A DNA stretch of 64,000 nucleotides from a virus. Under the pieces are notes generated by a model. That model had not been told where the DNA came from, did not search any database, and saw only the letters and a program-made list of their open reading frames with translations. Of this stretch, positions 3,401 through 49,118 are shown piece after piece. Each line of letters begins with the position of its first letter. The first letter of the stretch is position 1. The position numbers were made by a program, and so were the translations under genes. The DNA lies in the IMG/VR virus record IMGVR_UViG_3300027708_000032, positions 62,001 to 126,000 of that record; one strand, written 5' to 3'.

Positions 3401-5229
3401 ATAGCATTAAGCTTAGTAATCAAACTATCTAGATTTTCATCACCTGTACTTTCATATAACATAACTACAGGAAGAAGATAATTCTTGGTATCTGGTGTCT
3501 TAGCAGGGTCAGCATTTCCTATCTCTATACCTGTAAGATTTTTTAACATTAACCCACCCACTTCTCTACTGTAAAGATATTCTGTCTTAATAGGAATGGC
3601 TCTAAGCTTATTAAACTTACTAAACCCATAATGCTTACTTAGTATTTTTTTATACTGTTCCATTTGGATTCTGTAAGCAGGAGCTTTAAACCACTTAAGT
3701 TCATCTTGATCTTTACCAATCTCTTGAGACTTCCAGTCATAGATATCTACAGAACCATCAGGTAGTATAACAACAAGATCTATTGTACCAGCAACATTCT
3801 TTTCAGGATCGTATATCTTAACCTCTGCTAAAAATCTAGTTTTAGGATCTGAGTATTGTTTAAGTAGATCAGTGAAGTATGTTTCTAACTTCTGATATAC
3901 ATCAGTAGTGGTAGATATATTTTTTTTAGTTACAGCTGTAGCTCTACGAATACCCTTTTCATCAAAGTATCTTCTAATGATATCTTCCATGTCCTTGTGT
4001 ATCTTAGTACCTTCATCAGCTTTAAGACTATCAATCATCTTCTGACGCTCTGATCTATTATCTGTAGGGAATCTTTCTTTATACCATGCATCTACATACA
4101 CAGAGTTAACACTTCTACCTTTTCCTTCTTTGTCTACAACAGGTTTACCATCTACATTATATATATGTTTCTTCTCCCCCGTGGCAGGATCTATATTATC
4201 GTCCAGTTTAATTTTATCTTGGTCAGCTATAAGTTTGTTTGTAGAATACTCAGGAGAGTTAACATTGTTAGCTTGGAGAAACTCTTCATCAGATAGTTGT
4301 TTCTGTGTATCTAGCTGAGATGTGTCATTTGTGGTAATACTTTCTGCAGCAGTTTGGAAAGGATTAGTGGTAGCTACGTTAAATACTTTCTTTATAAAGT
4401 CCCACACTTTATTCCACCATTTCTTAACTGTGTTTATTTTATCACTAACTTCCTCACCTGTCTCGTTCTTTATTATATGAGCCATGATGAGTTTACCTAT
4501 AGCCTCTTTCTTAAGCTTATCAAAGTTTATAGTACCATCTGCGTTACGGTACATCTTAATATCTTTATACTCATCAACTGTCTGCTTGTATATCTTGTAT
4601 CCAGTTATCTGGTTGTACATCTCTTTGTATAAAGCATTCTCTGTACCAAGCATCTCTACAAAAAAGTGAGCAGCCTCTTCAGAGAGTGTAGTAATATCAG
4701 CTCTGCCTTCTACCACTTGTATAATCTTATTAAGCATATCAGCCTTAGCTACAGCATCTAGTACATTACCAGCTCTGTCTCTAATCTGAGATAGTGTTTG
4801 TATGTTCACACCAACAGATGCTAAGAAGTTTTTTATCTTACCATCTATTTGTTCGTTAGATTCTTTAGGAGATTGTTGTTCTTTCTGAAAAAACTCTCCA
4901 CGCTGTTCTTCACTATACTCACCTCTAGCTTGTTCTGCGTCCTGAAGGTTACGAGCTTCATCTATAAGTTTATTCTGTTCATCTTGTTTATACTTTGTAA
5001 AGTATGTATCTACAAGTTTATCAGAAGGATCTATAAAGAAGGATCCTTTTTCTCCTTCTTTAATAACAAGATCTTTAAACTCTGCATTAACTTCTGCAAT
5101 AGCTTTAGAAGCTTTGTTAGGATTAGCAAAGTAGCCAGCTGTATCTTGTACAGTGGCTCCTCTATCAGTAAGTTTATTTCCTACTTTATCTATTATATCT
5201 TTCTTAATATCTAATGAACATTTACTCAT
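418..5229 (-). CDS. giant virion-associated protein with RecB-like PD-(D/E)XK nuclease domain (1603 aa)
   Basis: Last gene of the leftward operon, 2 nt after the RNA polymerase gene and followed directly by a terminator. Residues about 400-510 carry a RecB/Cas4-type PD-(D/E)XK signature: H411 in EGTKIHKDME, D484 in GTIDLVV, and D498-W-K500 in DIYDWKSQ. This is the usual metal-binding and catalytic set, so a DNA nuclease is plausible. Near residue 190 there is TTLSEEAAHFFVEML, which resembles a helix seen in phage polyvalent proteins but is not a complete HExxH site. The middle is long, charged and helical. Residues about 1478-1497 form a hydrophobic segment (LIMWLGFASLVFWAAGG) followed by an acidic GGGDDDED run, which may be a membrane-inserting segment. 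By position it is probably packaged with the polymerase and injected. Whether the nuclease degrades host DNA or processes phage DNA cannot be told from sequence. Confidence 0.75.
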   Translation of the reverse strand: MSKCSLDIKKDIIDKVGNKLTDRGATVQDTAGYFANPNKASKAIAEVNAEFKDLVIKEGEKGSFFIDPSDKLVDTYFTKYKQDEQNKLIDEARNLQDAEQARGEYSEEQRGEFFQKEQQSPKESNEQIDGKIKNFLASVGVNIQTLSQIRDRAGNVLDAVAKADMLNKIIQVVEGRADITTLSEEAAHFFVEMLGTENALYKEMYNQITGYKIYKQTVDEYKDIKMYRNADGTINFDKLKKEAIGKLIMAHIIKNETGEEVSDKINTVKKWWNKVWDFIKKVFNVATTNPFQTAAESITTNDTSQLDTQKQLSDEEFLQANNVNSPEYSTNKLIADQDKIKLDDNIDPATGEKKHIYNVDGKPVVDKEGKGRSVNSVYVDAWYKERFPTDNRSERQKMIDSLKADEGTKIHKDMEDIIRRYFDEKGIRRATAVTKKNISTTTDVYQKLETYFTDLLKQYSDPKTRFLAEVKIYDPEKNVAGTIDLVVILPDGSVDIYDWKSQEIGKDQDELKWFKAPAYRIQMEQYKKILSKHYGFSKFNKLRAIPIKTEYLYSREVGGLMLKNLTGIEIGNADPAKTPDTKNYLLPVVMLYESTGDENLDSLITKLNAIYDILSSKKVKASEKNLKSQELNDLARTIRDLQVRKDINSFVDNGLFELTKYKKKLDANEFTIYDIGEAIKTMRVYAQSQNYLQEQLIEINKQITASKEPTVTEYLKGLKDQFQDMIGNSTYVLGKLVKRRNELADAYARSEGINTLLNAEKSMDWFKRNFRSTSTLDTAAMQTFYKTLRKAQGIRDRNVLTNLDELKDIEKAYTEWASINGKSGTDMFQYLLEFDDEGKWNGNLLNIYSKDFFKQRDIALKNNDFGWFKANTDFDQAAYTAARLEQIKLLEERYPGTDEKIKIKRDKALLAWEEKHSSKHDFAYINKYNTFIKPAAKWHSDKYKFIYQKNSKGEYVNKPVKDAYEYFQKLTRRAADLGMIDGFSARFIPSILTGTEFNPGKILDDLKVKSDQGFSNIDELTGDLRKEIPVYYTKEIEDVKRKSQDLFKVFGQWGVHIENYQAMSDIEDISEMLLEIENDKQSYAENQFGKINKEKKINKNETNAEVLENHINYYLYGRETSSNIDKAIQINGEEYSAVKGVRKALRYMAMKTLGLNVLSGTATFVGGTANAFFIGSKRLVFTEGEWVQGVKDYTSKDEVTLAAIYQFGLSVEDETNKKLRELSVEGVMKHATSDHLMFIQRTGDKWATLPVSATMLRTYMIGEDGKVVNIRNYVKSKNNYDNFYNLPISEQKTLRAKMEAEVQDLMDNKSLKATAKIENGKLVIPGMTDNIENTTAFRGAVQKTIKQIIGNASRQDINQVRMSLAGSIMMQFRSWMPQMMAERFGDMTYDMDMESWQYGKARLFFKHLANKNILPLIGELTTGFGTNTIDKAKERYREFIVRLKEEGKINDDSEFMTEAEFIDMYVGNLRSMMRELIMWLGFASLVFWAAGGGDDDEDKSGARKWIAKALRKYKNEFAFYYSPGEFTSMIKSPVPLIGLLTDTEDLIGNTIGQGVGFLRDDEEQMKKNHPLKYLNKILPITKELQSNYAFINDDFRKSFDIKY

Positions 5230-5231
5230 TA

Positions 5232-8200
5232 TTAACAGCTGTTTTGATTGTTATTATCAATAGATGGAAAACCTTCTGGTTGTACATTTGTATTTCCAGG
5301 AACCCAGATACCTGTTTCATCTTGTCTTATATATCCTTTACTTGTAAGATACTTAGCTAATGCAACTTCTCCTATATTATAACTTTTTGTGTTTTCTATA
5401 TGTGCTGCTGTATCCATTATGAACTTAGCACCAGCTGCAATAGCTTTGTCTATATTTTTATAAGCAAACTGTAACACTCCATTTTCTACAGGATTAACTC
5501 TACCACCACGAGATCCATTACTACTTACATATATTAAATCTGAAGAGTTATAAACACCAGTGTTAGCTAAACCATATTGATCATAAAGTTTCTTGTAGTT
5601 ATCTGTGCTACTCTTAACAGAACCTTCACCTATATACTGAGTGGCTTGTCTTGTTTTAAACTGTTCTTTAGGAAGATATTTCTTAGCTGTTTCATTTATA
5701 ACCTCAGGCATTCTGTTAGTTATATCTTGTTTCTGAGCTTCTGTAGCTTGTTTAATATTTGATGCTGCTGTAGTTTCTAACTTATATGCACTAATATCAT
5801 ACATGTGTACCATCTCACCTCTCATTAAGTTCTTACCTGCATACTTAGCATCTTTCTTAAAGTTCTCCCATGTACCATATCCTTCTTTCTTAGCAAACTC
5901 ATCTTTAGTGTAAGAGATACCATCACCCACTATATTATTTTCTTTCATCTGTACTAAGCCAAGATACTTTATAGAAAACGTGTTACCTTTTTCTGTTCTA
6001 TACACACCATCTCCTTTATAAAAAGTTTTATGGTATGTGTTACTACGCACTGTGGCAGATGCTGTACCTTTTAATACCCAGTCTTCTATTACATTAAGTT
6101 TAATAGATCCCTTTGCAGGGTCTGCTGATACATTCTGTTCTGCCATCTCATCTGCAAAAGACTTACCTTTTTCTGTTTTTACTTTATTAGCAAATACTTT
6201 AGATTGTACAGTGTTTAAAACATCATTCTTTTTTAATATAGATTCTGCAAACTCATCAGGACTAACCTCTATCATATACATTCCATTTCCTAGTTTATTA
6301 ATAGGTACATAACTATAGTATCCTTTTTCATTAGGTTCTCCCACACGTTCATAAAGAGTGTAACTATTTATCTTATCCCACATCTTTTTCTTAGCATACT
6401 CTTCACGTAGTTCTTTATCATTAGAAACTTCTTTAGAAAGTTGTTTAACCGTTACAAACTCTCCTTTATTACGAAAACTTTCTACATTTGGAAATTCAGG
6501 ATCATGTATTAGTTTATTTTCATCATACTCTTCTTCAGACCTATCTAAATCTTTTAATCCTACTACATCTACAAACTTAGCATTTTTATAATTATTCTGA
6601 TGGAACTGTCTCCACACTGTATCGGGATCCATAGAGTTAGAATCATCTGTCATAAAACTATCTATAATATCATGCACTCTTTCTGAATACAAAGATATAG
6701 GCATTATCTTACTGAATGATATAGGACTCTGTTGCACACCAGACTGGGCCATTAAAAATATACTAAGATTATTTACAAAGCTCTGAAGATATTTATCTTG
6801 TTTCTTATCTGCTATTTCTTTAAGCTGTTCTAAAGACTCCCCCATAGAGTTCATCTCAAACGAAGTCAGTCTTGTGTTAAACAGTTTGATATTGTCTGTA
6901 TCTTTAGTGTCTGAATTTATTACAGCAAATAAGTTTTGAAGAGCTTTATTATCTGGATATAGTTTTTGGAACTCTTTTAATTGTCTACCTATAGAGTTAG
7001 ATCCTGTAAATAAATTTTTATAGTAACTATAAACACTTATATACTTACCAGAAGGAGCCTTAAACTTAACAGTGTGTAAAACGTAGTTAAGAACAAAGTT
7101 TTGATAACGGTTTAATAAATCTATCTTATCATCTTTACTCATGAACTCATCATTCAACACTACATCAAACATTTTATCCATTACAGCTTTACTCTTAGGG
7201 TGAGCTGTTATAAAAAAGTCTTTAAACATTTTAGGAACATCATCTTTAATATCTTTCATTTTTCCTAAGAATGTATTCTCCATAACTCTCTCTAAAGAGT
7301 CTGCTGTAACAAACCCATCTTTTTCAGCTTGTCTATATGCAGCTTCTTGTAAACGGTTCTCGTTTATATTTTTAGTTCTGCTAGTATCATAAGAGATAGC
7401 CTTAATAAAGTTACCTAAGAGTCTACCCTGGTCTTCATACTTTTGATAGTCTTGTAAAAGCTGCAGCTGTTTAATAGCTTCTTCTTTAGTTAGATTGTAT
7501 GTACCATCTTGATTGGTAGGTTTAATCATATTTACAAGTTCATTAGTCTTGTACATATCTACAGGATCTAATGTTCTTAAAGCATTATCTATAGCTTCTA
7601 TAATTTTTCTTTTTTTCCATGCATACTGAGATGTTAGAGCACTTTGGAAAGTATCATTTCCTTTAAATGTATTTTTAATAAACTTATCCAGTTCAGGAAA
7701 AGCTTTCATTAAGAACTGTTCCATAGCAAGATATCTAACAGTAGACTTAGATAGTTCAGCACCATTAACCTTATTTATTAAAGAGTTGTTCTTAGATAGT
7801 TCTTTAAAATAAGTTTCAATAATAGGCTGAGTGTGTAGGTATGCTATATCATCCACAGTTACACCAAGCTTCTGTAAGTAGAACCATACGTTTGCTGTAT
7901 TTAGTGTAAGGTTAAGATCAAATATAAATGGATCCTTAGCAGCATCCACTGCAGCAGTCATAGCTTCAGATAAAAGTTCAGAAATCCACTTGTGTCCTTT
8001 GTCCTCTATAAGGTTAAGCATATACTTACCTTCTGCAGTGTTAGAGTCAAACTTAATGTTTATGGCTACAGGATTACCATTTTTGTAGTACACTCCGTTT
8101 AGTTCTACATCACCGTACTGAGAAAGACTATGAGATGTAATCTGTAAAGCTATCACACCTACAAGCTTCTTACCCGTTATATAACGCTCTCTAACTTCAG

Positions 8201-11200
8201 TCATGTTTTTCCACTCTGACATAGCTGTCATATCTAGATCAGCAGGTGGAAGATTCTTAAGCTCACGTATTTTAGTAGCAATAGCTTTAAGAGTGGCAGC
8301 AGCATTTGGTACAACCATCTGACGGTAGTTATCAGGGTGACTAAGAATATTACCCATAAGTTCTATCAATCTATTCTGACGAGCCTTCTTGCTATTTTGT
8401 TCTTCTATAGGAAGTTCTTTAAACTCTTCTAAACTAGGTAATCCTCCTACACGAGCAAGCTCTTTTGTATACTCTAGTCTTTGTTCTTTAAGAGATTTTA
8501 AAAACTCATCTCTTGTTTTTTCCAGGTTATCTTCTTTCCAGTTTTCCCATTTACCAAGGGCATCATTAGCTCTATCAGCTAAAGAATTTAACTGTTCATC
8601 TGTCCAAGCATTTATCTGACCATATACATCTAACATAGCCTCATGATACTGGATCATCTGCATAAGTGTAGGAGCATATTTAGCATCAGAGTTAGCTTGA
8701 AGAAGACGTTCAGCCACTGCTTTATTTTCTGCTACAGATAATATACCCTCATCTTTTAAATCATAGAAGGGTTGTTTAATAGACAGAGGAAGAGTTTTAA
8801 ATAATTTAAGACCTTCAGCTTTATATCTACTTATGGTATCATCATTACTCTTGGTCTCATTAGCTATCTTAAATATTTCATTTTTAGCATTTTCATACTG
8901 ATCATCATATTGCTGTCTAGCGTTATTAAACTTTTTAAATATATCATCCTTGTTACTACCGTACTTTTCTTGAAGACTAGTTCTTTCACCTGAATATCTT
9001 TCAAGAGTTTTAACATAACTCTTAGTATCAGAGTCAACACTCTCATTAATAAAACGAGTGTATCTGTCTTCCACCTCAGCATCAGATGTGCTATACTCAA
9101 TGTATGTAGGCTTACCTGATTTCTTATCTATATAATAGTTAGCTAAGAATAAGTTTAGCTTATCTATATCAAAATCCGAACCAGCCTTAGCCACAATCTC
9201 AGAAGGAACAACAATCATGTCTCCCCATTGTGAGTCTAAGAAACCAGCTATTCTAATACTATCTATAGAGTTAAGAGCCTGTGTAGGAATACGGAAACCA
9301 ATAGCTTGAAGTAATCTTGGATCTAGTTCTGATAATTTAATTTCCTCACCTTCTTTGAATACATCTTTAAAAAAGTTAGGAACCAAAACTTCCATGTAAG
9401 GTTTCTCTTTCGTGTAGAAGTTAAGATCTGCAGAAACCATCTTAGCTGTTTTACGTTGAGCTTTTGTAAGTTCAGATCCTTTAACTGGAGCTACATACTT
9501 ACTATTCTCTTTGTACGTAAACATTCTATCACTAGTCTCAAACATTGTAGCAGGAACCTGAACAGCTGCTTTACCATGCATAGTCTGAGCAAGTATTCTA
9601 CTATCTACAATAGAGTTTAGAATGTTATCAAGCTTCTCACGTACAGGACTAGCATCAAATCTATACTGTACTCTTTGAACACCTGTATTAGCATCTGTCA
9701 TAACCTTGAGCATATCCAATACATTATCTGGAAGATCTCTACGTTCCATCTCGGACTTAAGAGTATCCATCATTCCGTTAAGATCATCTGTAATATACTC
9801 TTCACCCACCTGACGTAATCCTAAGTCTTTAAGAACACCTCTAAACTCAGTGGCTGTAAGACTATCTATTAATCTATTATACTCTTCTGCAAATGCTCTA
9901 AGTTCTGTATTATCTTTTGAAATATTACTAAGATTGATCTTTCTCATCTGACTACCAAAGATAGTGCTGTCTTTACTATACGCAGCCATCTCTACCTGGA
10001 AGCCATAATACTTAGTATACATCTCTTGTATAGGAGGAGCTTCTTGATTAAATGCACCGTTCTCATCATACAAAGGTTGTATAGTTCTTGTACCTTCTTC
10101 TTTAGTCTTTGATTTAGTAACAACACCCACTTTCTGTCCAGAAACAAAACCTACAATATCAACCTGATCTGTCTGAGCTTGTAAATACTTACCAAGCATA
10201 TTACGTTTATCAACCACTCTAGACCATACAAGAGGAACAACTGAATGCTTAAGCATACTTGTATGAGTTAAACCTTTAGTATTTTGATATCCAAACCCTT
10301 GAGGTTTTAACACTTGTAGTATAGCTTTAGGTTTTGGATTAGCCATTACAGCTTTAGCATTATCAATCTCATCTTGAGTGTATGTCTTAGCAAACCCTGG
10401 AACATCATACATAGGATGTTTAGGATTAGATCTATCTACTATTTCATTAGCATTTTCCCATTGAAGAAGAGAATCTTGTTCAGATAATAACTTACCACTT
10501 AAGAAGTGCATGTCTCTAAAGAAGTCAGGCATAATATAAGCACCACCATCAGCTTCACTAGCATTAATATATCCGTCTATCGTTGTACCTTTTCCACCTA
10601 CTATTTCACTTACAGTACCGTCATCATTAAACTCTGCACCTATAAGTTTCTCTATAAGTTTTTTATCTTTCTTAGTAATCTCTTTATTAGCACTTTCATA
10701 TGTAGCTTTCATACTAGCATATATCCCTTCTGCTATATTGTTTAAGTACACAGACACAGACTCAGGATCTTCATGAGTGACAAACCTAAATGTATTAGTA
10801 CGTTCTTTACCATCAAAACGTGACATATTACTATCCATCCAACCTAGATACTGAGAGTTCTCAGTGATAGCTTGCTTCTGAGAGTTAATACCTGATGAAC
10901 GTTTAGCAAGTTCTTTACCATACAATGCAGGGTGTCCAAACAAAAGTTTGTGCTGTTCAAACACTGCCATCTGTCTATTAGTTGTTATAAATGTAATCAG
11001 CTTCTTAAAATCACGAGCAGGTATAGCACCATCTTTATACGGAAACTTTTCACCTAAACCATCAAGCTGTTCTTTAGAAAACATATTAGTCTTGTAAATG
11101 TTTGCAACCCTATCATACTTAACTAATCCTAAATCCTGTAACCATTTAATATTTTCTTCAACTTTAGCATTAGCATAGTTTACTATTAGAGTTGTCACTA

Positions 11201-14200
11201 TATCACTATCTGCAAACTGTTCTTCTGATATTTTACCAGCCATGTAATCTGCAAATAACTTTTTAACTGTCTCATTGCTATCCACTTTAATGATCTCTCT
11301 GAAGTTACCAAGTTTAACAACATTATCAGAATAGTTCTTTATTTTATACTTAGTATTACCACTTTCAAATAGTGCTGTTCTAAGTTCATCTTTTAATCCT
11401 TCTTTGTATAGATCTACAATCTCTGGTGTCTCTGCAACAGAACCAAGCTTAACATCACCAAGCTTTATAAAGTGTCCAAAGTTTAAACCAAACTCACTAG
11501 ACTTATCTGAGTTGATGATTGTAAAATATGTACCATCTAAAATATGATATATCTCTTGTACCACTTTATCAGGGAACTCAAGTCTATCAGTACTTGTTCC
11601 TACGGACTCTGACTCACTAGAAATACCTAATATATATCGGTATTCAAACTTAGCATCTTTTAATTTCTTACCCGTACTATCAAACAAAGGACCATCCTTC
11701 TTAAGAAGATGTGAACCTACTACATATGGATTAAGTTTAACTTCTCCTGTTTTTAAATCTACCTGACCCAGGTGAGGATTAGATGCTATAAAGTCTGTAA
11801 GATTATCTACTGCTTTAAATGAGTTAGCTATATAACTCACTGCAGATGGTTGTGTAATACTATATTGTTGTTTACCTTCTGCGTTACGTGTAGATAGAAT
11901 AGTTTCATCTCCTGTAAACTTCTGCTCTACGGCAATCAGATTATTTATACGACCATTTACAATTTGTTTACCAAACAAGTCGTCAAAGGTTCTTATAGTA
12001 CCATCATCAAACTTAGCTTTAATAGCTGAGAAGTCTTTAGATATTTGACTAGCTCCTGCTTCTAATACCACTTCTTCATCTGTAGCACTAAATTCAAAAC
12101 CTAACTTTCTAAGACTATCTACCATTTGTAATGGACTAGTAACACTCATTATTTTAGCATACTGCTCTGATAAAGTATTAAATACTATCTCTGCATTAGC
12201 ATTGATGTAGATCATAGGACCCTTTTTAAAGTCCTCTTCTGAACTACCATAAAATTCTTTAGCGTTATATTTTATATTATTCTGCCAGTCTTCTCTAATA
12301 CGTCTAGCATTTGTAGAGTCAAGAGTATTATCAGAATATATAACACCGTTTTCTCCAACAATAAGTTTATGTGGGCTGTTTCTATTATTACTAAATGAAC
12401 TTTCAAAAGCTACTAACAATGCTACTTCATCTTTGTTAAGAGAAGTAATATCTCTTTTAGTACCATTTAAATCTTCATAGGCTAGTCTTCTTTTAAGACG
12501 AGCTATCCACTCATACCCCACTTTATATCTTCCGTTCTTTTTAAACCTGTTGTCTAACTTTTCAAACATCTGATCCAGTGCAGATACTTCTTCAAGTCTT
12601 TTGGTTTTAGGATTGTATTTAGTAACAGCCACTGTACTATGTAATTCATTATGTAAGAGGTTAAGCTTACGAGCATAGTCTTCTAGTATAGGTAGGCCAA
12701 GTTCATTACGTCTGTTAGTTGTAATACCATTATCACTATATTCATCAGAAGGTAAAGACGCAATAAGAAGTTTAACTTCTGCTTTGGTCATATCTCTAGG
12801 ATCAATAAACATAGCTTCTACAATACCCAATCTATCATTGCGTTCTATTTCCTCAGCAGCCATTGTTTCTTTAACCTCATCATCTATTTTGTTCTTTACA
12901 TCTTTAAACTCTAAACCAAACTGACTTATATATTTTTTAAATAGGTCTCTTACTTCTGTATTTATAGAGTTAACTGCTAGTAGCTGATTTAACATATCAG
13001 GAATAGATATCAACTGATTATTAATAGCTTCTTGATTAAAACCTAATTGGGATAGATGATTAGAAATAAAGTCTTTATTTTCATCAAACCTATCCATTAC
13101 ATTATTAGCAACACCAGCATATAACTGATTAAATAATAAAGGCTTGCTACCATCAAACAAAGCTTTAATATTATTTTCTCCTGCATATAAATCTATAAAG
13201 AACTGAGCAGCCATACCTTCCATTAACTTCTGTGTAAACTCTGCATTTGTACCTGTAAGAGTGGAACGGAATGCAGGCATCTGTGGCTGTACATTTTCTA
13301 CCTCTTTAGCATTAGCAAACTCACCTGCTGCTATCTTACGGAACATTTCATTTATAGCACTATTCTCAGGTTGTGCAGTTGTTATACCAAATGCTTCTTG
13401 TATATACTTCCAGATACTTTTAAAGAAGTTCAATATCTTACGAAACAATGTATTTCTTACTGGAGAGTTTTCTTTAACCACACCTTTATCACTTCTTATG
13501 TAAGGAATAAACTCTTCAGCCAACATTTCTTTTACATCGTATGCTGTAGCTTTAGAATGATCTTTAGTTTCTCCTGTAAAGATGTTTGTAAACTTACCTG
13601 GTCTATTTCTAAACTCTTCTATTAATTTCTCTTGGTCTTTAGCAGTAAGATAACTATTCCATACAGCTTCAAATGCTTCATGGAAACCTGTACCAGCTCC
13701 AGCATTCTGATAAATCTGTATTACACCTTTTATAAATTTACCCATAGCTCTACCATCAATAAGATCATTTGCTATTTCTAAATGAATCTGAGGAAGTATT
13801 CTAGCTAATGTTTTTTTAAACTCTTCTATGTTTTCTTTTTCTTTAACTAGTTGTTCTAAATATAGACGATGATGTCCATTATCAGAAGATGTAGTTTTAT
13901 TACGTGAGTTTAATAATTGTAATGCTGCTTGAGCTGCTGCAGTTATACTTGCAGGATCAGAAGCTTGTACTACTGGTTCTGTTTGTGTAGGCTTACCTTC
14001 TAAAGCAGCTAGTTTAAATACTTTATTTTCAAAATCTTTTCTATCAAAAGTCTCACTGAATTTTTCACCATCAGGATAAGTTACTTCAACTTCTACAGTA
14101 TCAGCTGTAGTACTTAAAACTTTAACTTTAGTTCCTTCATAAGATTCTTTTGAAGCAGCTTTATAATCAATAATAGGAGTTGCAGTTTCTCCTTTTGGAT

Positions 14201-17200
14201 GATCTACTGTAAGCTCTTTATTTTCTATTACATACTCAACTCCAATAACTTTAGTATCTATAGAAACAGGAGCTGTTTGTGTAGCAGTAGGAGTTTTATA
14301 TTTTTCAGATATAGCAGCTTGTAATATCGGTACACTATATAAACCACCAGGAACACTTCTAACATTTTTTGAAGGATCAACTGATGTAAGATTAAACTCT
14401 CCATTTCCAAAGTCACTAACTTTAGCTTGGATTATACTACCGTCCTCAGCAAATGCTGATACAATATCTCCATTCTTTAAGTTCTTAAGAGCCTCTAGTT
14501 CAGATTCTTTTGTAAGAGCAGTAGCTACAGGTTGTGCAGCTGTAGTTTGTTGAGCTGCTGCTTGTGGAGCTGCAGCACCTTCTGTACTTATAAGTGTATA
14601 TCTTTTTTTAAGTGCAGCAATTTCTTCATCAACTAGTTGTTTAATATCTGGTTTACTTATTTCACTATATCTTTCAATGTATCCTTTTAGAGGACCTGCA
14701 TAAAAATCATTTAGAAACTCTTCATCTTGAACAACTATTTTATTATATAGGTCATCATCATACTTTGCACCATTTGTACGTTCTACTTTAGTGACTACAA
14801 ACTTCTCACCGTTCCACTCAGCAAACACATTAAGCATACCTTGTTTGTCACCAGGTACACGACTAAACACAACAGTCTTTCCTTTTACTAATGGAACCTT
14901 TACTGGACTATCAAACACTTGGTTTGTTGTAGATGTTGTTTGAGTGGTAGTTACAGGAGCAGCCACAACAGCAGCAGGAGTAACACCCATTAACTTATCT
15001 AATGCTTCTTTAGCAGATTGTTCAGTGTTATAATGAATAGTGTTTCCTTTCCAGCTAAATGAATAACTTGGAAGTCCTGACTCAGGATCTATATCTTTTG
15101 CTATAGCAGGTCTTGTTGCAGCGAGAGTATTTGTTTGTGTAGTAGCAGGAGCTGGTTTCTGTCCAGCAGCTTCTTCTTTGGGACCTTGGAATTTTAAATA
15201 TACATTCTTAAGCTGTGGATCATTTATGTTTTCTACAGCACTGTATGGTACTATGTTAGTGTATACAACAGGAGTGTGACCTTTTACTTTATCTGTAAGA
15301 AGATATTCTAAGTAGTTATTAAACTTCTTATCTTCTACAATTTTACCATCTACCACTTTAGCTGTAGAGAACTTATCATTCTTACGCTTACCACTAAGCA
15401 TAGTGTTATTTACATTGTGGTACAGTCCGTTTAATATTTCATCTTTAGCTGCAGTGATAGCATCTAAGTTTAACTGACCATCCACTTCAAACATATATTC
15501 TTTACCACGTATAAAGAACAATCCTCCACTTATATAAAACTGATTCTTGCTTGCTGTCTCACCAGCGTCAAGCTGACTAAAGTGTACAAGCCCAGCTATA
15601 TAAGACATAGCTAAGTCATACTGGTTTGCTTCTTGATTAGTAAGCTGAGTGGTAAGTCTTACAAGTTGTTCAGATGTAATTTTTCCATCTGAAAATAGTT
15701 CATTAAGTTTTTCTTTACGCTCGTCTGACAAAGGATTTCTTCTTCCGTACATGGGAAGCATGGCTAACAAAACATTAAACAAGTTTTCTTTTTCTTGTTC
15801 TTCCATTTGTCTGTTATACACTTGAAATTCTGTATCAGACTTAGAACCGTTTTCTGCTTGTTTAGTTTTAATTATAACAAGTCTACCTGGTTTAATTCTT
15901 CTATTACCACTATTCTTATTTGTTACTACTTCTAACACTATCTTAGATCCATCAGGATGACGTAGATCAGAAAAGTTAGGATTGTTTTCTATTAGTCTTC
16001 CTTGTAATGAAAGCTCCTGTGGTTTGTTAGTAGCTACATCTAATGGTTCTCTTTTTTGTTTACCCTTAGACTTCTCCGTTACTTTAAGATGTACAGCTTC
16101 TTTGTTCTTAGTCTTGTTAAGAATATCTGCTCTGAATCCTCTGAACCTTTTAACTTCATTAAGTATTTCATCATCAGACATTCCTTTAGTAGTAAATGGT
16201 GATGATGCATCTTTAAGATAGTTAAGAACTTGTTCATCACTGCCTTCCATAATAGTTACATTATTAGGCATAGATGTATATACAATAGTATCCTTAGTAG
16301 GGTTGTCTAGTATCTTACCATCTACACCTACATACTGAAACTTATCACCAACCTTTTTTACAAGAACAAGTTTAATATCATCCTTAACAGCTACAGTTTT
16401 TCCAAACTCATCATAAGACTCTATAGTAATACCAAACTCATCGTTAGCTTTAGATACAGGCATGAAATAATATGTACCATCTAGTGCAACTGTTTCAGAA
16501 AATCTAAAGAACCTAGCAGCCTGAGGATTAGTAGGTGTAGGATCACTATCATTCCAGTAGTGTCTGTCTGCAGTTTTAAATAATCCACCTTCATTTAATA
16601 AAGGTTTATCTACATCACTAATAAATATCTTATCGTTCTCATCATCTGTTACCACTTCTTCATCACTCATGATATCACCAAACTCTGAAAACTCTTGAGC
16701 TGCTTGTTTGGTAATAGCAGTAACTCCCTTATTTGTTTGTGTAACAAGATTAATAGCAGCAGCTTTTTGAAACCCTTCTGTAATAGCTGCTTGTAAATCT
16801 TTTAAGAATTGTAAACGAGAGTTTAAATCTTTAAGTTCTATTATCTGTTCTTTAGCTAATGTCAGTCTATCAAGTTTGTCTTGAAGTTCTGCCATACGAT
16901 TTAAGATATCAGACATGTCTTCTTTAGCAAACTTATATTCTGTAAGAGCAGCTAAAGCTTGCATTACTTCTTTAGACATCACTTGATTAATGATAGCTTC
17001 CCCAGGTTCTATGAGAGACTTAAGATTTTTCTTTATACCTCCTATGAGTGTATTTATCAGATCTATCTTTTCATAGTCAGGATTATCTTTCTGTTCTTCT
17101 TGATTTCTTAGAGCAACAAGGTTTTTAGATAGTCTACCTAAAGACTTATCACTCATATTGTCTGTTCTAAAAATGGTGTTAATAAGATCATCATACTTTA

Positions 17201-20200
17201 CAAAACGAGAAAGAAGTTTCTCCATCATCTTGATAGAGTCATAAACTATATTTAGTTTTTGTGTAAGAGCTTCTTGTTCTATTTCTACACCAAGAATAAC
17301 ATCATCTAATTTTTCTTCAGGTACTCTTGTACGTAATTGATTACCTTCTGCTTCATTTACAGCTTCTTGTTGTTCACCGTATATAGTTCCACTCTCATCT
17401 CTTAAGAATGGTTCTTTATTAGTTTCTAATTCAGCAAGACCTTCTGTATATACTTTCTTAGCTTCTTTTAAAGCTTCAAGTTCTTTTGTTACATCTGCTT
17501 TCTCTTGTTCAAGTTTAGCAGCTAGTTCTTTAGCAGCTTCTATCTTTCCAGGAAACTGAGCTATGATTTGGTTGTATTCTGTTCTTGCAGCATTAGCAAG
17601 CTTAGAACGTTTGGTTCTAAGGTCTGCAATATTTTCTTCAGCTATCTGAAGGATAACTTGCATGTCTTCTACACTCTGTCTAAGATCAGCTATTTGCTTA
17701 TCTATTTCTTCAGATCTCTTCTGACGTAAACCAACTTTGTTTTCTTGCTCCTGGATTAAAAACTTAAGAGCATCCAACTGCTGTTGATAAACTAAAGCCA
17801 CTCTTTGTTTACGAGCTAGCTCTTGAGCTTCAGCAACTGTAGGAAGAACATTTAATTCTAATGCAGCTTTACCACTAGCATCTTTCTGAGCATACTTTTT
17901 ATAATATGCCATGTTAAAATCTACACTGGTTTCTTTATTTGTAACAGGATTGGTGTATTTAAGTTTCAACACCCACTTGTCATTTTCTTTTACAAGATCT
18001 AGTCTAGCAGAAATAGTAATACTATTATTAGTATAATCTCTCTTAGCATGAACACCTGTTATGTTATGAAGTGTACCTGTAGTTTTACTAACATTTATTC
18101 TTAATATCTTATCTCTGTTTTCAAAATATATTTTTTGATCAGGTGTTAGTTTAGTAAAGTTTGTAATTTTACCAGCAAGTTCTGCAAACTCTTCCATCTG
18201 ATATGTTACAGATTCTGGATCATTGTTTACAGTGATGGTCACTGTATTACCTTCAACATCTATTTTATTAATTTTAATAATATCCTGATCATACGTAGTG
18301 TATATCTTTTTATCCTTACCCACTCTTTTTGTAGGAGTGGACTCTGTAATAAACTTATTACCTTCTATTAGTTCTACATCACTTTCTACACCATTCTTAT
18401 CTTTCACTTTAATAGTAACTCTTGTAGCATTTGGATTCTCAGCTTGTACTGTAGTAGCAACAGCTGCTGCTTCTCCTGTAAGACCTTTATCAGCTTCTGT
18501 TTTAGCTTTACGAGCTTCATCTATTGTATCAAACACTTCTATAAGAGATCCATCTGGATTATATAAAGCATGTACATCGTGTATACTAAGAATAAATGTT
18601 TTACCATCACCGATAGTTTTCTTAACATGTTCAGCACCAGCCATGCCAAGAAGTTCCATGTATGCTTTACTAGCTCCCATAGTCATTCTTTCATGAAGCT
18701 TCATAAAGTTCTCAGGATTGCTAAGCATGTTTATAGCTTCTACGTGAGAGTTATGCTTTTCATGTAGTTTTATATAATCTATAAAGTCTAAGAAATGATC
18801 TTCTGTATCTTGTTTATCTACAGATAACTCTCTACCGTTTTGTTTATTCTTAGATGCTAAGTATCCTGCAAAAGCTCTGTAAGATTTATCTACAACAGCT
18901 TCATTAAGAAGCTCACCTTTAGATGCTTTCCAGTCATTGATATGTTTAAGCTGTTCTTCTTTTATAGCAAGACTATCTTCAAGTTTTTGTCTGTCTTCTT
19001 TAGTAAGACCTTCTAACTTTAATTGTTCTTTGTTAAGTTTAATCTCTGCCGTTAGTACACCAACCTCAGCAGTCATGTTCGTTTCTGATCCCATGATATG
19101 GAATGCATCTGCAAGAGAAGCTCCTAAGTTTTTGTTAGATGAAACTTTACGGAATATGTTTGTAATACGATCAAGAGCATCTGTAGCTTTAAATTCATTA
19201 CTAGCCAAATGTTCTATCATATCATCTAGAACTTTCTTTTTTATTAGCTCATTCATGAAAGCTTTGGTTCCAGGTTTAAATCTGTTAGGGTTAAATTTAT
19301 TACCATAACGTTCCTGAAGTTTATTCCATGTCTTAGTATAAGAGTCTATAGCTCCTACCACTTTATCTGTGTAGTCTTCTACAGTCTTTTTATTTTCACT
19401 TGTATACTCTGCACCAACAAAAGCTTTTTCAAACTCTTCTTTGGTCATATGTTTACCATAAGAAGTAAGAGTATCTTTTAATCCTTCATAAGTATTATTA
19501 CGTATAGATGCAGCTATCATTTTATCAAGCATAGCTGTACGTATATTTTCATACACAAACTTATCTTGATTTTTAGCAGCAGCTTCTAAAGCAGTGGATC
19601 CTTCCTTTTGGAAGTTAAGATTTTTTACAGCTTCTTGGAATGCTGCAGATGGATCTTTAGCAAATGCATTAAACTCTGCATAGTGTTTACCAGCTGCTCC
19701 TTTTTGTGTTTCTTTATTTTTAAAGTATTCTGTCTTTTGTTCTGCAGTCATGCCAGAAGTTTTCTGCATGTCTGTTATCTTTTCACTACCATACTTTAAA
19801 GCTCTACCACCTAATGCAGTGGGACCATGTAATATAAGTCCTGTAAGAGCACCAGACATAAATGTCTTAACGCCCTGCATGTTAAGCTGTGATGCTACTG
19901 CTCTTTTAAAACTATCTCCTTCTGGTTGATAGTCAGGGTTAATAGATACGTTGTATGCATTACGATAGTAGTCTTGGAAGTATACATTAGAACCTTCTTG
20001 TAAAAGTTCTTGTATACCTTCAGTTATTTCCATCTTAGCCATACTTTTAAGAAGAGAAATACCAGCTACTTCAAATGCTTTTGCTTTTCCAAAATCAGCC
20101 GCTACTTTTTTAAATGCTCCTACACCACCTAATATTCCTGTTTCATAATAATGAGGAACAAGTTTATCAGTACCATTTAACCTACCTACCACTTTAATCC

Positions 20201-21506
20201 TATTTTCTACAGCTTCATCTAAACCATATTTAGATAAAATCTGATTCATCACTTTACTGTTCTTAAAGATGTTATCAAACTGAATACGGTTTGATATACC
20301 AAGAATAGCAGTGTTGAAATTAAAGTTTCTATCAGCAGCCTCCATGGCCATCTTGTTCATATTTTCTATAGCATCTGCATCAGGTCTTTTACCATTAAGA
20401 TCTACATAGTCTTGGTATAGTTTAGAATACAAATCTGAATATGTACCAGCAGCTTCCATACGAGCTTCTGTAAATGCAAAGTTAGCCTCACTAAGAGTTC
20501 TCTTTACGCCACCTACACCCACTTTAGTTAAATCCCATGCAAGCTCAGCTCCACCTATCCCTGCTACTTTAGCAGCTCTATATGTCTCAGCTAAGTCTAC
20601 ACCTATATCAATAACAGGAAGTCTTTTACCTACACTTAGCATAAAGTCTTTAACCATGTTATCTTCTTTCCAAATATCACCAAGTTTTTTAAGAGCTTTA
20701 AAGTTTTTAGCAGCATCAAAAAACTCTTTAGTTTTTTCTCCAACTCTTCCTAAACGTGTAATATTTGCAGCTGTTTCTATATCTGATGCTGTTTCTAAAG
20801 CAGCTGCAGCAGGAGCACCAATACCAGTAGCAGTTAATCCAGCCTCTATAGCTTTAGTAATAAGTTGTTCAGATAACATACCACCCATAGCACCTACAGT
20901 AAAACCAGATTGCTGTAAAAAGTTTCCCCATGTTTGACGGTTCCAAAATGTATTCTCCCCTTCTTTTGTAGCATAGATGGGGTTTTCATTCATGATGTCA
21001 TTCATAGACTTGTCTAGCTCTAACATAGACGTAGCATCACCATGAAGTTTATCCCAGTCCCATGTTACTAAAGCATCAAACATTCTACCAAAACCTTTCC
21101 AGTTATCTACAAAACCATTAGCTGCCAGTTTTCTCATTCCAGTAAAACCATTAGACATAACTTCTCCCCATGATTGGTTCAGTCCATATCTTTCTTCATT
21201 AGAACCATCTAGTTCAATACCAAGTTTTTGAAAGTCAGGAGAAGATCTATATCTTTCTACATTCATAGCTTGAGCATCAAAACCTATAGGACGCATCTGC
21301 TGTTCTAAAGAAGGAGCCTGTGTATTTATTTTAGTAAGAAAGTCACCCAATGGGTTAGAGTCACCACCTCCAAATCTGTTTAGATCATACTTATACGTAG
21401 GAGTTGTATAGTTAAGAGGTGTTATAGATGAAAGACTTTGTGGAATTTCTTTAACCGCAGGATTACCAATTATATCTTGACTAACTTGGCTGTTATATTC
21501 AGGCAT
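5232..21506 (-). CDS. giant virion RNA polymerase polyprotein, crAss-like (5424 aa)
   Basis: The largest gene in the window. Residues 4111-4115 read DFDID inside VVPSEIVAKAGSDFDIDKL, preceded by GFRIPTQ. This is the catalytic, metal-binding loop and double-psi barrel context of the virion RNA polymerase of crAss-like phages (Cellulophaga phage phi14:2 gp66 family), injected to transcribe early genes. A segment near 3750-3800 (SMLKHSVVPLVW, FVSGQKVGVV) probably belongs to the partner barrel. The protein is far longer than phi14:2 gp66, a roughly 2,200-residue polymerase. The N-terminal ~600 residues are cargo-like with a hydrophobic Ala/Gly segment near 200-245. Long coiled coils lie around 1220-1360. 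Thr/Gln/Ala-rich linkers lie near 2100-2200 and 2310-2330. A zincin-like GFHEAFE (H2609, E2610) is degenerate because the second His is Glu. Residues about 5130-5240 resemble an ASCH domain, followed by an unrecognised C-terminal domain. TAA stop; standard code throughout. Confidence 0.93.
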   Translation of the reverse strand: MPEYNSQVSQDIIGNPAVKEIPQSLSSITPLNYTTPTYKYDLNRFGGGDSNPLGDFLTKINTQAPSLEQQMRPIGFDAQAMNVERYRSSPDFQKLGIELDGSNEERYGLNQSWGEVMSNGFTGMRKLAANGFVDNWKGFGRMFDALVTWDWDKLHGDATSMLELDKSMNDIMNENPIYATKEGENTFWNRQTWGNFLQQSGFTVGAMGGMLSEQLITKAIEAGLTATGIGAPAAAALETASDIETAANITRLGRVGEKTKEFFDAAKNFKALKKLGDIWKEDNMVKDFMLSVGKRLPVIDIGVDLAETYRAAKVAGIGGAELAWDLTKVGVGGVKRTLSEANFAFTEARMEAAGTYSDLYSKLYQDYVDLNGKRPDADAIENMNKMAMEAADRNFNFNTAILGISNRIQFDNIFKNSKVMNQILSKYGLDEAVENRIKVVGRLNGTDKLVPHYYETGILGGVGAFKKVAADFGKAKAFEVAGISLLKSMAKMEITEGIQELLQEGSNVYFQDYYRNAYNVSINPDYQPEGDSFKRAVASQLNMQGVKTFMSGALTGLILHGPTALGGRALKYGSEKITDMQKTSGMTAEQKTEYFKNKETQKGAAGKHYAEFNAFAKDPSAAFQEAVKNLNFQKEGSTALEAAAKNQDKFVYENIRTAMLDKMIAASIRNNTYEGLKDTLTSYGKHMTKEEFEKAFVGAEYTSENKKTVEDYTDKVVGAIDSYTKTWNKLQERYGNKFNPNRFKPGTKAFMNELIKKKVLDDMIEHLASNEFKATDALDRITNIFRKVSSNKNLGASLADAFHIMGSETNMTAEVGVLTAEIKLNKEQLKLEGLTKEDRQKLEDSLAIKEEQLKHINDWKASKGELLNEAVVDKSYRAFAGYLASKNKQNGRELSVDKQDTEDHFLDFIDYIKLHEKHNSHVEAINMLSNPENFMKLHERMTMGASKAYMELLGMAGAEHVKKTIGDGKTFILSIHDVHALYNPDGSLIEVFDTIDEARKAKTEADKGLTGEAAAVATTVQAENPNATRVTIKVKDKNGVESDVELIEGNKFITESTPTKRVGKDKKIYTTYDQDIIKINKIDVEGNTVTITVNNDPESVTYQMEEFAELAGKITNFTKLTPDQKIYFENRDKILRINVSKTTGTLHNITGVHAKRDYTNNSITISARLDLVKENDKWVLKLKYTNPVTNKETSVDFNMAYYKKYAQKDASGKAALELNVLPTVAEAQELARKQRVALVYQQQLDALKFLIQEQENKVGLRQKRSEEIDKQIADLRQSVEDMQVILQIAEENIADLRTKRSKLANAARTEYNQIIAQFPGKIEAAKELAAKLEQEKADVTKELEALKEAKKVYTEGLAELETNKEPFLRDESGTIYGEQQEAVNEAEGNQLRTRVPEEKLDDVILGVEIEQEALTQKLNIVYDSIKMMEKLLSRFVKYDDLINTIFRTDNMSDKSLGRLSKNLVALRNQEEQKDNPDYEKIDLINTLIGGIKKNLKSLIEPGEAIINQVMSKEVMQALAALTEYKFAKEDMSDILNRMAELQDKLDRLTLAKEQIIELKDLNSRLQFLKDLQAAITEGFQKAAAINLVTQTNKGVTAITKQAAQEFSEFGDIMSDEEVVTDDENDKIFISDVDKPLLNEGGLFKTADRHYWNDSDPTPTNPQAARFFRFSETVALDGTYYFMPVSKANDEFGITIESYDEFGKTVAVKDDIKLVLVKKVGDKFQYVGVDGKILDNPTKDTIVYTSMPNNVTIMEGSDEQVLNYLKDASSPFTTKGMSDDEILNEVKRFRGFRADILNKTKNKEAVHLKVTEKSKGKQKREPLDVATNKPQELSLQGRLIENNPNFSDLRHPDGSKIVLEVVTNKNSGNRRIKPGRLVIIKTKQAENGSKSDTEFQVYNRQMEEQEKENLFNVLLAMLPMYGRRNPLSDERKEKLNELFSDGKITSEQLVRLTTQLTNQEANQYDLAMSYIAGLVHFSQLDAGETASKNQFYISGGLFFIRGKEYMFEVDGQLNLDAITAAKDEILNGLYHNVNNTMLSGKRKNDKFSTAKVVDGKIVEDKKFNNYLEYLLTDKVKGHTPVVYTNIVPYSAVENINDPQLKNVYLKFQGPKEEAAGQKPAPATTQTNTLAATRPAIAKDIDPESGLPSYSFSWKGNTIHYNTEQSAKEALDKLMGVTPAAVVAAPVTTTQTTSTTNQVFDSPVKVPLVKGKTVVFSRVPGDKQGMLNVFAEWNGEKFVVTKVERTNGAKYDDDLYNKIVVQDEEFLNDFYAGPLKGYIERYSEISKPDIKQLVDEEIAALKKRYTLISTEGAAAPQAAAQQTTAAQPVATALTKESELEALKNLKNGDIVSAFAEDGSIIQAKVSDFGNGEFNLTSVDPSKNVRSVPGGLYSVPILQAAISEKYKTPTATQTAPVSIDTKVIGVEYVIENKELTVDHPKGETATPIIDYKAASKESYEGTKVKVLSTTADTVEVEVTYPDGEKFSETFDRKDFENKVFKLAALEGKPTQTEPVVQASDPASITAAAQAALQLLNSRNKTTSSDNGHHRLYLEQLVKEKENIEEFKKTLARILPQIHLEIANDLIDGRAMGKFIKGVIQIYQNAGAGTGFHEAFEAVWNSYLTAKDQEKLIEEFRNRPGKFTNIFTGETKDHSKATAYDVKEMLAEEFIPYIRSDKGVVKENSPVRNTLFRKILNFFKSIWKYIQEAFGITTAQPENSAINEMFRKIAAGEFANAKEVENVQPQMPAFRSTLTGTNAEFTQKLMEGMAAQFFIDLYAGENNIKALFDGSKPLLFNQLYAGVANNVMDRFDENKDFISNHLSQLGFNQEAINNQLISIPDMLNQLLAVNSINTEVRDLFKKYISQFGLEFKDVKNKIDDEVKETMAAEEIERNDRLGIVEAMFIDPRDMTKAEVKLLIASLPSDEYSDNGITTNRRNELGLPILEDYARKLNLLHNELHSTVAVTKYNPKTKRLEEVSALDQMFEKLDNRFKKNGRYKVGYEWIARLKRRLAYEDLNGTKRDITSLNKDEVALLVAFESSFSNNRNSPHKLIVGENGVIYSDNTLDSTNARRIREDWQNNIKYNAKEFYGSSEEDFKKGPMIYINANAEIVFNTLSEQYAKIMSVTSPLQMVDSLRKLGFEFSATDEEVVLEAGASQISKDFSAIKAKFDDGTIRTFDDLFGKQIVNGRINNLIAVEQKFTGDETILSTRNAEGKQQYSITQPSAVSYIANSFKAVDNLTDFIASNPHLGQVDLKTGEVKLNPYVVGSHLLKKDGPLFDSTGKKLKDAKFEYRYILGISSESESVGTSTDRLEFPDKVVQEIYHILDGTYFTIINSDKSSEFGLNFGHFIKLGDVKLGSVAETPEIVDLYKEGLKDELRTALFESGNTKYKIKNYSDNVVKLGNFREIIKVDSNETVKKLFADYMAGKISEEQFADSDIVTTLIVNYANAKVEENIKWLQDLGLVKYDRVANIYKTNMFSKEQLDGLGEKFPYKDGAIPARDFKKLITFITTNRQMAVFEQHKLLFGHPALYGKELAKRSSGINSQKQAITENSQYLGWMDSNMSRFDGKERTNTFRFVTHEDPESVSVYLNNIAEGIYASMKATYESANKEITKKDKKLIEKLIGAEFNDDGTVSEIVGGKGTTIDGYINASEADGGAYIMPDFFRDMHFLSGKLLSEQDSLLQWENANEIVDRSNPKHPMYDVPGFAKTYTQDEIDNAKAVMANPKPKAILQVLKPQGFGYQNTKGLTHTSMLKHSVVPLVWSRVVDKRNMLGKYLQAQTDQVDIVGFVSGQKVGVVTKSKTKEEGTRTIQPLYDENGAFNQEAPPIQEMYTKYYGFQVEMAAYSKDSTIFGSQMRKINLSNISKDNTELRAFAEEYNRLIDSLTATEFRGVLKDLGLRQVGEEYITDDLNGMMDTLKSEMERRDLPDNVLDMLKVMTDANTGVQRVQYRFDASPVREKLDNILNSIVDSRILAQTMHGKAAVQVPATMFETSDRMFTYKENSKYVAPVKGSELTKAQRKTAKMVSADLNFYTKEKPYMEVLVPNFFKDVFKEGEEIKLSELDPRLLQAIGFRIPTQALNSIDSIRIAGFLDSQWGDMIVVPSEIVAKAGSDFDIDKLNLFLANYYIDKKSGKPTYIEYSTSDAEVEDRYTRFINESVDSDTKSYVKTLERYSGERTSLQEKYGSNKDDIFKKFNNARQQYDDQYENAKNEIFKIANETKSNDDTISRYKAEGLKLFKTLPLSIKQPFYDLKDEGILSVAENKAVAERLLQANSDAKYAPTLMQMIQYHEAMLDVYGQINAWTDEQLNSLADRANDALGKWENWKEDNLEKTRDEFLKSLKEQRLEYTKELARVGGLPSLEEFKELPIEEQNSKKARQNRLIELMGNILSHPDNYRQMVVPNAAATLKAIATKIRELKNLPPADLDMTAMSEWKNMTEVRERYITGKKLVGVIALQITSHSLSQYGDVELNGVYYKNGNPVAINIKFDSNTAEGKYMLNLIEDKGHKWISELLSEAMTAAVDAAKDPFIFDLNLTLNTANVWFYLQKLGVTVDDIAYLHTQPIIETYFKELSKNNSLINKVNGAELSKSTVRYLAMEQFLMKAFPELDKFIKNTFKGNDTFQSALTSQYAWKKRKIIEAIDNALRTLDPVDMYKTNELVNMIKPTNQDGTYNLTKEEAIKQLQLLQDYQKYEDQGRLLGNFIKAISYDTSRTKNINENRLQEAAYRQAEKDGFVTADSLERVMENTFLGKMKDIKDDVPKMFKDFFITAHPKSKAVMDKMFDVVLNDEFMSKDDKIDLLNRYQNFVLNYVLHTVKFKAPSGKYISVYSYYKNLFTGSNSIGRQLKEFQKLYPDNKALQNLFAVINSDTKDTDNIKLFNTRLTSFEMNSMGESLEQLKEIADKKQDKYLQSFVNNLSIFLMAQSGVQQSPISFSKIMPISLYSERVHDIIDSFMTDDSNSMDPDTVWRQFHQNNYKNAKFVDVVGLKDLDRSEEEYDENKLIHDPEFPNVESFRNKGEFVTVKQLSKEVSNDKELREEYAKKKMWDKINSYTLYERVGEPNEKGYYSYVPINKLGNGMYMIEVSPDEFAESILKKNDVLNTVQSKVFANKVKTEKGKSFADEMAEQNVSADPAKGSIKLNVIEDWVLKGTASATVRSNTYHKTFYKGDGVYRTEKGNTFSIKYLGLVQMKENNIVGDGISYTKDEFAKKEGYGTWENFKKDAKYAGKNLMRGEMVHMYDISAYKLETTAASNIKQATEAQKQDITNRMPEVINETAKKYLPKEQFKTRQATQYIGEGSVKSSTDNYKKLYDQYGLANTGVYNSSDLIYVSSNGSRGGRVNPVENGVLQFAYKNIDKAIAAGAKFIMDTAAHIENTKSYNIGEVALAKYLTSKGYIRQDETGIWVPGNTNVQPEGFPSIDNNNQNSC

Positions 21507-29141: not shown

Positions 29142-29153
29142 ATTAGTATCTTA

Positions 29154-30131: not shown

Positions 30132-30136
30132 GATAA

Positions 30137-48230: not shown

Positions 48231-48250
48231 TTTATTTATATTTTAATGTT

Positions 48251-49108: not shown

Positions 49109-49118
49109 TTATATTCTA

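Follow-up and report, generated by a model that had tools for sequence, protein, structure and literature searches.

How giant virion RNA polymerases (RNAPs) pass through the narrow tail of a phage is an open question for both crassviruses and N4-like phages (PMC10172136, PMC12633501), and it concerns a locus in which one frame, at positions 5232-21506 on the minus strand, encodes 5,424 amino acids. The locus lies in a 64,000-nucleotide stretch of viral DNA (the window), which is part of a 128,065-bp IMG/VR virus record and for which no near DNA match was found. The frame starts with ATG and contains no N and no internal stop, where base composition alone predicts ~448 stops, and its codon-position GC is coding-like from end to end, so the uninterrupted frame described in the initial annotation of this DNA stands. 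Readthrough was considered and set aside. The parts of the chain are the following, in positions of the window.

5232..21506, minus strand: the whole gp47-gp50 fusion (frame, gp47 and gp50 matches, N-domain HMM, 6vr4 and profile matches)
13227..21506, minus strand: gp47-like part, residues ~1-2760 (N-domain HMM; gp47 zincin match at 2567-2734)
14007..15149, minus strand: variable Thr/Gln/Ala linker region, residues 2120-2500 (coverage profile; relatives barely cover the region)
13227..14009, minus strand: zincin-like domain, residues 2500-2760, at the C-terminus of the gp47 part (HMM, AlphaFold model)
13668..13682, minus strand: HEAFE, residues 2609-2613, an HExxE variant of HExxH shared by the clade (motif counts in 102 sequences)
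6222..13226, minus strand: gp50-like RNA polymerase part, residues 2761-5095 (gp50, 6vr4 and profile matches)
9162..9176, minus strand: DFDID catalytic loop, residues 4111-4115 (Asp residues invariant in alignment A1)
5235..6221, minus strand: variable C-terminal tail, residues 5096-5424 (tail lengths in relatives)
5793..6137, minus strand: tail module, residues 5124-5238, called ASCH-like in the initial annotation (recurs at residues 1461-1576 of the RNAP of locus L030)
5292..5711, minus strand: mobile module, residues 5266-5405 (recurs in other crass RNAP chains and as standalone ORFs)
5235..5237, minus strand: Cys5424, TGT codon, the final residue before the stop and the sole cysteine (sequence)

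The translation places the DFDID loop where it had been reported, and the core has matches to the phi14:2 virion RNAP (PDB 6vr4; E=4e-19) and to an eight-sequence profile (2e-235), confirming that it is that of an RNA polymerase; Pfam and PHROGs searches gave nothing solid on the 5,424-aa protein. The zincin end of gp47 aligns with residues 2567-2734 and gp50 with residues 3782-4569, and by HMM the N-domain belongs to the gp47 family, homologous to the separate gp47 of other crassviruses. The earlier suggestion that separately encoded proteins are fused here is thus correct, the two being gp47-like and gp50-like proteins that are separate in phi14:2 and phiCrAss001, and the zincin-like segment, the Thr/Gln/Ala linkers and the C-terminal extension are all present as described. 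Because the window encodes a muzzle protein with a crAss_MUZ match together with portal, capsid, tail-tube and gp49-like homologues, we assign the virus to the crass-like phages; the RNAP gene and its gp47- and gp49-like partners belong to the cargo/transcription block that lies behind the muzzle gene. Judged by these homologies, the 5,424-aa protein is a natural gp47-gp50 fusion and the predicted virion RNA polymerase of a crass-like phage. The neighbouring features needed below are these.

418..5229, minus strand: gp49-like RNAP-associated protein, 1,603 aa, the next link of the series (homology; one Cys, residue 4)
5218..5220, minus strand: Cys4 of the gp49-like protein (MSKC), TGT codon, predicted partner of Cys5424 (sequence)
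21540..24650, minus strand: gp46-position cargo protein, 1,036 aa, without cysteine and outside the linked series (position)
34759..39336, minus strand: muzzle protein (Pfam crAss_MUZ, E=2.1e-30)

Elsewhere in the window, the interval between the muzzle and RNAP genes (24705-34759) holds extra large genes whose products have 1,478, 325 and 1,540 aa, the first with a match to a Tcp10_C-type repeat; in many other crassviruses just two cargo genes occupy this place. At 46605-52820 two large putative surface proteins of 541 and 1,233 aa contain 30 and 34 cysteines, respectively; they have similar MAC.CN N-termini, and the end of the larger one is Thr-rich.

The length of the chain had been presented as exceptional, and this does not hold. 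The 68 complete gp47-gp50 fusions that we collected from environmental sequences span 3,581-6,057 aa (median 4,326), nine triple fusions (gp47-gp50-gp49) span 4,799-5,642 aa, and the open frames of the nearest relatives have 5,262 and 5,127 aa. With relatives of this size, and with crass RNAPs of up to ~6000 aa given in a 2023 review (PMC10136315), we rejected length as a novelty. The initial annotation had itself named two observations that would speak against it: relatives of equal length and architecture were largely found, and an internal stop was not. A comparison of gene boundaries with other crass-like genomes, also proposed there, upheld the fusion but not its rarity, fusion being the usual state. 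In Suoliviridae and Fipvunavirus the gp47-gp50 fusions have 4,272-4,946 aa (4,419 aa in Fipvunavirus FPSV-S29), while in Intestiviridae gp50 is fused with gp49 instead (4,070-4,388 aa). The 5,424-aa protein exceeds these giant fused RNAPs chiefly in its gp47 part, where the Thr/Gln/Ala linker at ~2120-2500 has no counterpart, and in its C-terminal tail, a region that ranges from 39 to 1,009 aa in relatives.

What sets the chain apart is its cysteine content, a feature missed in the initial annotation. Base composition predicts ~133 cysteines in the 5,424 residues and there is one, the last residue, while the remaining ORFs listed for this genome average 1.2% cysteine. The gp49-like neighbour also has a single cysteine, at residue 4, so that the junction DNA reads ...AGC TGT TAA TA ATG AGT AAA TGT.... 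When the tails of relatives, otherwise unrelated in sequence, were aligned, the only invariant column was the end cysteine, and in a first set of IMG/VR relatives with intact C-ends a cysteine lay within 7 residues of the C-terminus in 75 of 75.

The cysteines were then counted at every junction of the gp47-gp50-gp49 series in 157 non-redundant crass-like RNAP ORFs from IMG/VR and GenBank; the IMG/VR relatives came from alignment queries, single-protein scans having given none or near kin only. Where a junction is split, a cysteine is found on both sides, with two or three exceptions, and where it is fused there is none. At the gp50/gp49 junction, a cysteine falls within 9 residues of the C-terminus in 128 of 129 split RNAPs (1.06 expected if each protein's own number of cysteines is placed at random) against 0 of 22 fused ones, and 119 of 121 gp49-like proteins have one within the first 9 residues (1.0 expected). 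For the gp47/gp50 junction, classing by length alone misfiled seven loci with a long gp50 (L113, L116, L119, L125, L130, L191, L244); for these the class was corrected from the separate ORF lying upstream or convergent, and we repeated the test with gp47 N-domain homology (HMM) deciding the fusion state and cysteine ignored. In these cysteine-blind classes none of the 77 fused proteins and all 27 split ones have an N-terminal cysteine, and a cysteine in the C-terminal zone is present in every one of the 27 separate gp47 ORFs. Accordingly, unfused gp47 has a cysteine at its C-terminus but not at its N-terminus, gp49 shows the reverse, unfused gp50 has cysteines at both termini, and the fused gp50-gp49 of the Intestiviridae type retains the N-terminal cysteine alone; the outer ends of the series have none, and the number of cysteines follows the number of split junctions. 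Cysteine makes up 0.043% of the bodies of the chain proteins, against 0.39% for the remaining long ORFs in these loci.

The strongest prediction of this rule is that triple fusions, having no split junction, should have no cysteine, and the nine that we found have none in 47,733 residues. The same result bears on the idea that the terminal cysteines are loading tethers, each binding the protein that bears it by a disulfide to a third party (the portal, gp45 or the capsid). Virion proteins of phiCrAss001 do make intersubunit disulfides, as this idea requires, but cysteine-free triple fusions, outer ends that never bear a cysteine and a cysteine count that follows the split junctions are not what a tether for each protein would leave behind, and we regard it as distinctly improbable.

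The rule is valid in public Steigviridae, Intestiviridae, Suoliviridae (TAG-recoded genomes included) and Fipvunavirus. It also holds in phiCrAss001, cr128_1 and DAC15, in which gp47 and gp50 lie on opposite strands, and a mere effect of gene adjacency is therefore excluded. A nucleotide-level signal, in which the cysteine codons would serve the translational coupling of adjacent genes, could draw on the many genomes in which the two genes abut within ~20 bases; however, TGT and TGC both occur, there is no common context, the distance varies, and the rule persists in these same three phages, where gp47 and gp50 are not adjacent. We grade this explanation as already contradicted and barely credible.

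To account for shared ancestry, the fusion states were placed on a tree of the polymerase core. Cysteine and fusion state are concordant in 131 of 131 cases at the gp47/gp50 junction and in 150 of 151 at the gp50/gp49 junction, with at least 14 and at least 7 changes of fusion state, respectively. At gp47/gp50, all 8 supported independent pairs are concordant (p=0.0078); at gp50/gp49, 4 of 4 are concordant, or 3 of 4 if locus L228 is drawn, none is reversed, and the supported pairs are too few for the sign test on this junction alone to reach 0.05. The breakpoints are also diverse. The chain is broken before the zincin in ten loci (L088, L097, L115, L118, L119, L131, L153, L158, L164, L244), after it in the crAss001 type, within gp47 in L182, within gp49 in L041 and L253, and near the DxDxD loop in L171 and L260, and the new ends bear a cysteine each time. 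A zincin HMM, tried as a binary marker of fusion, fails because breakpoints fall on both its sides, and this variety of breakpoints is itself evidence for the rule. In L119, L171 and L260 a small ORF (MEKLL..., ~157 aa) lies between the gp47-like and gp50-like genes. The RNAP ORFs of cr108_1 (L003) and bajarod virus 1 (L266) are broken at DxDxD, apparently by introns, and have no cysteine there, which makes them a natural negative control.

The exceptions are few. The RNAP of L228 lacks the C-terminal cysteine, and inserted ORFs may disrupt its 3' end; the gp49 of L121 has its cysteine at residue 20; and in two gp47 proteins the sole cysteine lies 23 and 31 residues before the end. In crAss002 the start is probably mis-set, the cysteine being residue 3 when counted from an internal Met. 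Some gut phages have several internal cysteines, up to ~20 in cr124_1, and the purge is therefore not absolute. Internal cysteines of the RNAP proteins are more numerous in gut crassviruses (L014-L018, L267) than in aquatic isolates, perhaps since oxidation is a smaller risk in anoxic habitats.

We propose that terminal disulfides join gp47, gp50 and gp49 head to tail into one threadable chain that would be reduced in the host, a reading to which we give a probability of about 0.77. The three proteins would act as a single linear chain of RNAP-associated cargo. Between split neighbours, a disulfide would connect the extreme C-terminal cysteine of the first with the extreme N-terminal cysteine of the second; in fused genes the peptide bond would take over this job and the cysteines would be lost. 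Other cysteines would be purged, as internal or branched cross-links would stop the single-file, partly unfolded transit of the portal and tail. Once in the host cytoplasm, the chain would lose its disulfides by reduction and the proteins would refold into the RNAP of early transcription. A disulfide from C-terminus to N-terminus is the only cross-link that leaves a chain linear and threadable, whereas cysteines elsewhere would risk branches or loops, and it would thus explain the placement of the cysteines, their complementarity across junctions, their loss on fusion and their depletion elsewhere. While this pattern is observed directly, the chemistry of the bond (a disulfide), its formation in the virion and its reduction on entry are inferred from it. 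In support, gp47, gp49 and gp50 are present in phiCrAss001 virions, several intersubunit disulfides are found there, and the cargo is thought to be extruded through the tail in partly unfolded form (PMC10172136). Several points speak against it: the exceptions and retained internal cysteines listed above, the small number of supported pairs at gp50/gp49, and the assembly of virions in a reducing cytoplasm, which means that oxidation would have to be late or catalysed. A fuller version, which we still consider probable, with somewhat less confidence, is that of a protein train in which disulfides are interchangeable with fusions, cysteine is purged, ~7,000 residues would pass in single file, reduction would uncouple the parts, and variable slots would carry exchangeable effector modules, helicase, NADAR and SLOG domains among them.

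The terminal cysteines might instead couple neighbours through a shared metal ion or an iron-sulfur centre, which would account equally for the pairing at split junctions and the loss on fusion. Each junction has two cysteines, however, usually with no conserved CxxC or nearby His and with variable flanks, and disulfides are known in phiCrAss001 virions, so that we think this unlikely.

The disulfide-linked chain also bears on how the polymerase might be delivered. The initial annotation held that delivery through the tail would require extensive unfolding or proteolytic processing; the unfolding fits the cysteine pattern, but separation by proteolysis before entry does not, as the fusions have lost their junction cysteines and their parts must therefore stay joined until inside the cell. 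Taken further, that earlier reading would make the protein an unusual polyprotein that its own zincin domain cleaves before or while it is delivered. A zincin-like domain is indeed present, N4-like vRNAPs are fused to zincins, and processing has been proposed for polyvalent proteins (PMC5512222). Yet such length and fusion are common, fusions cut before delivery would need the linking cysteines that they lack, and the motif is HExxE, not HExxH, leaving this reading very improbable.

Concerning the domain itself, HEAFE departs from the HExxH that defines zincin metallopeptidases. Among 102 sequences the motif is HExxE in 39 and HExxH in 59, and HExxE is conserved in the clade of this phage; the form may be a functional variant, not a decayed one. 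The HExxE clade keeps a downstream acidic motif. The AlphaFold model (pLDDT 78.9) gave no Foldseek match with E below 0.001, and nearly all its best VIA-align rows are zincins (top Z 6.9), with the best likeness to Pro-Pro endopeptidases and IrrE also among the rows.

The tails and linkers of relatives are mosaics of mobile modules, including RecD/PIF1-like helicase, NADAR, cpYpsA and histidine phosphatase. RecD/PIF1-like helicase or cpYpsA plus NADAR domains occur in the tails of L026, L028, L040, L042, L052, L045 and L086, and from their sequence these helicase and cpYpsA/NADAR domains are possible injected effectors. A piece of ~120-150 aa in the L026 tail recurs elsewhere in L082 (79% identity) and L097 (72%), whose cores are highly diverged; by this similarity the sharing is a horizontal exchange of modules in a virion protein. 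In the present protein, a Pfam search of the tail gave no match for the ASCH label on residues 5124-5238. The module at 5266-5405 belongs to no Pfam family and its model gave weak Rossmann-like rows only (Z under 5); it occurs at various positions in crass RNAP chains and matches standalone ORFs of ~135 aa adjoining nrdA in the Vibrio phages SUMAE and Kuja.

Among characterised systems, the phi14:2 RNAP (6vr4; Drobysheva et al.) and phiCrAss001 are closest, with a homologous core, the DxDxD loop, the same gene block behind the muzzle and the same terminal-cysteine rule. Their RNAP-associated cargo has been found in the virion, a location predicted for the present homologues, and they have three chains and two cysteine-marked junctions where this phage has one gp47-gp50 chain and only the gp50/gp49 junction marked. 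The phiCrAss001 cargo consists of gp47 (2,341 aa, ending in a zincin-like domain), the polymerase gp50 (2,412 aa) and gp49 (1,349 aa), with the junction cysteines at residue 2339 of gp47, residues 5 and 2404 of gp50 and residue 5 of gp49. The phi14:2 counterparts have 1,797, 2,180 and 1,421 aa, and their annotation derives in each case from virion proteomics. Like the crass cargo, the N4 virion RNAP and the N4 and T7 ejection proteins are very large (RNAP or channel proteins) and leave the virion by way of a narrow tail. N4 vRNAP has no cysteine in 3,500 aa, and N4 gp51 and gp52 and T7 gp15 and gp16 have none either (L268-L270), so by sequence ejected phage proteins may generally avoid cysteine. 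T7 gp14 has one cysteine, at residue 2. The N4 RNAP is of the unrelated single-subunit type, and the paired terminal cysteines of the crass series are absent from these N4 and T7 proteins.

Two-chain AB toxins have one interchain disulfide that is reduced in the cytosol, and their chains are proteolysis products of one precursor. By analogy, a reducible bond holds cargo together in passage and releases it on arrival, as we propose for the crass chain; there is no homology, however, and the crass chains come from separate genes and would be coupled at their ends. Similar multidomain proteins co-delivered with DNA are the polyvalent proteins (Iyer et al. 2017, PMC5512222) that combine a zincin with exchangeable effector modules, and the protein of this study has a zincin-like domain and mobile modules on one chain whose delivery is predicted. 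That article treats N4 RNAPs and does not contain the term crAss, and the passages considered here gave no terminal-cysteine rule. In the literature searched, which did not include the phi14:2 structure paper (PMC12127119), we found no earlier report of terminal cysteines in crass RNAPs, and within that scope the rule is apparently unreported; it is also directly testable.

The end-cysteine code thus offers a concrete and cheap test on the passage of giant RNAPs through the tail. If the proposed linkage is true, it would represent a new way of coupling separate proteins for ordered export and would explain why the RNAP genes of crassviruses fuse and split so freely, and it would guide annotators in telling real protein ends from introns in these much-disrupted genes.
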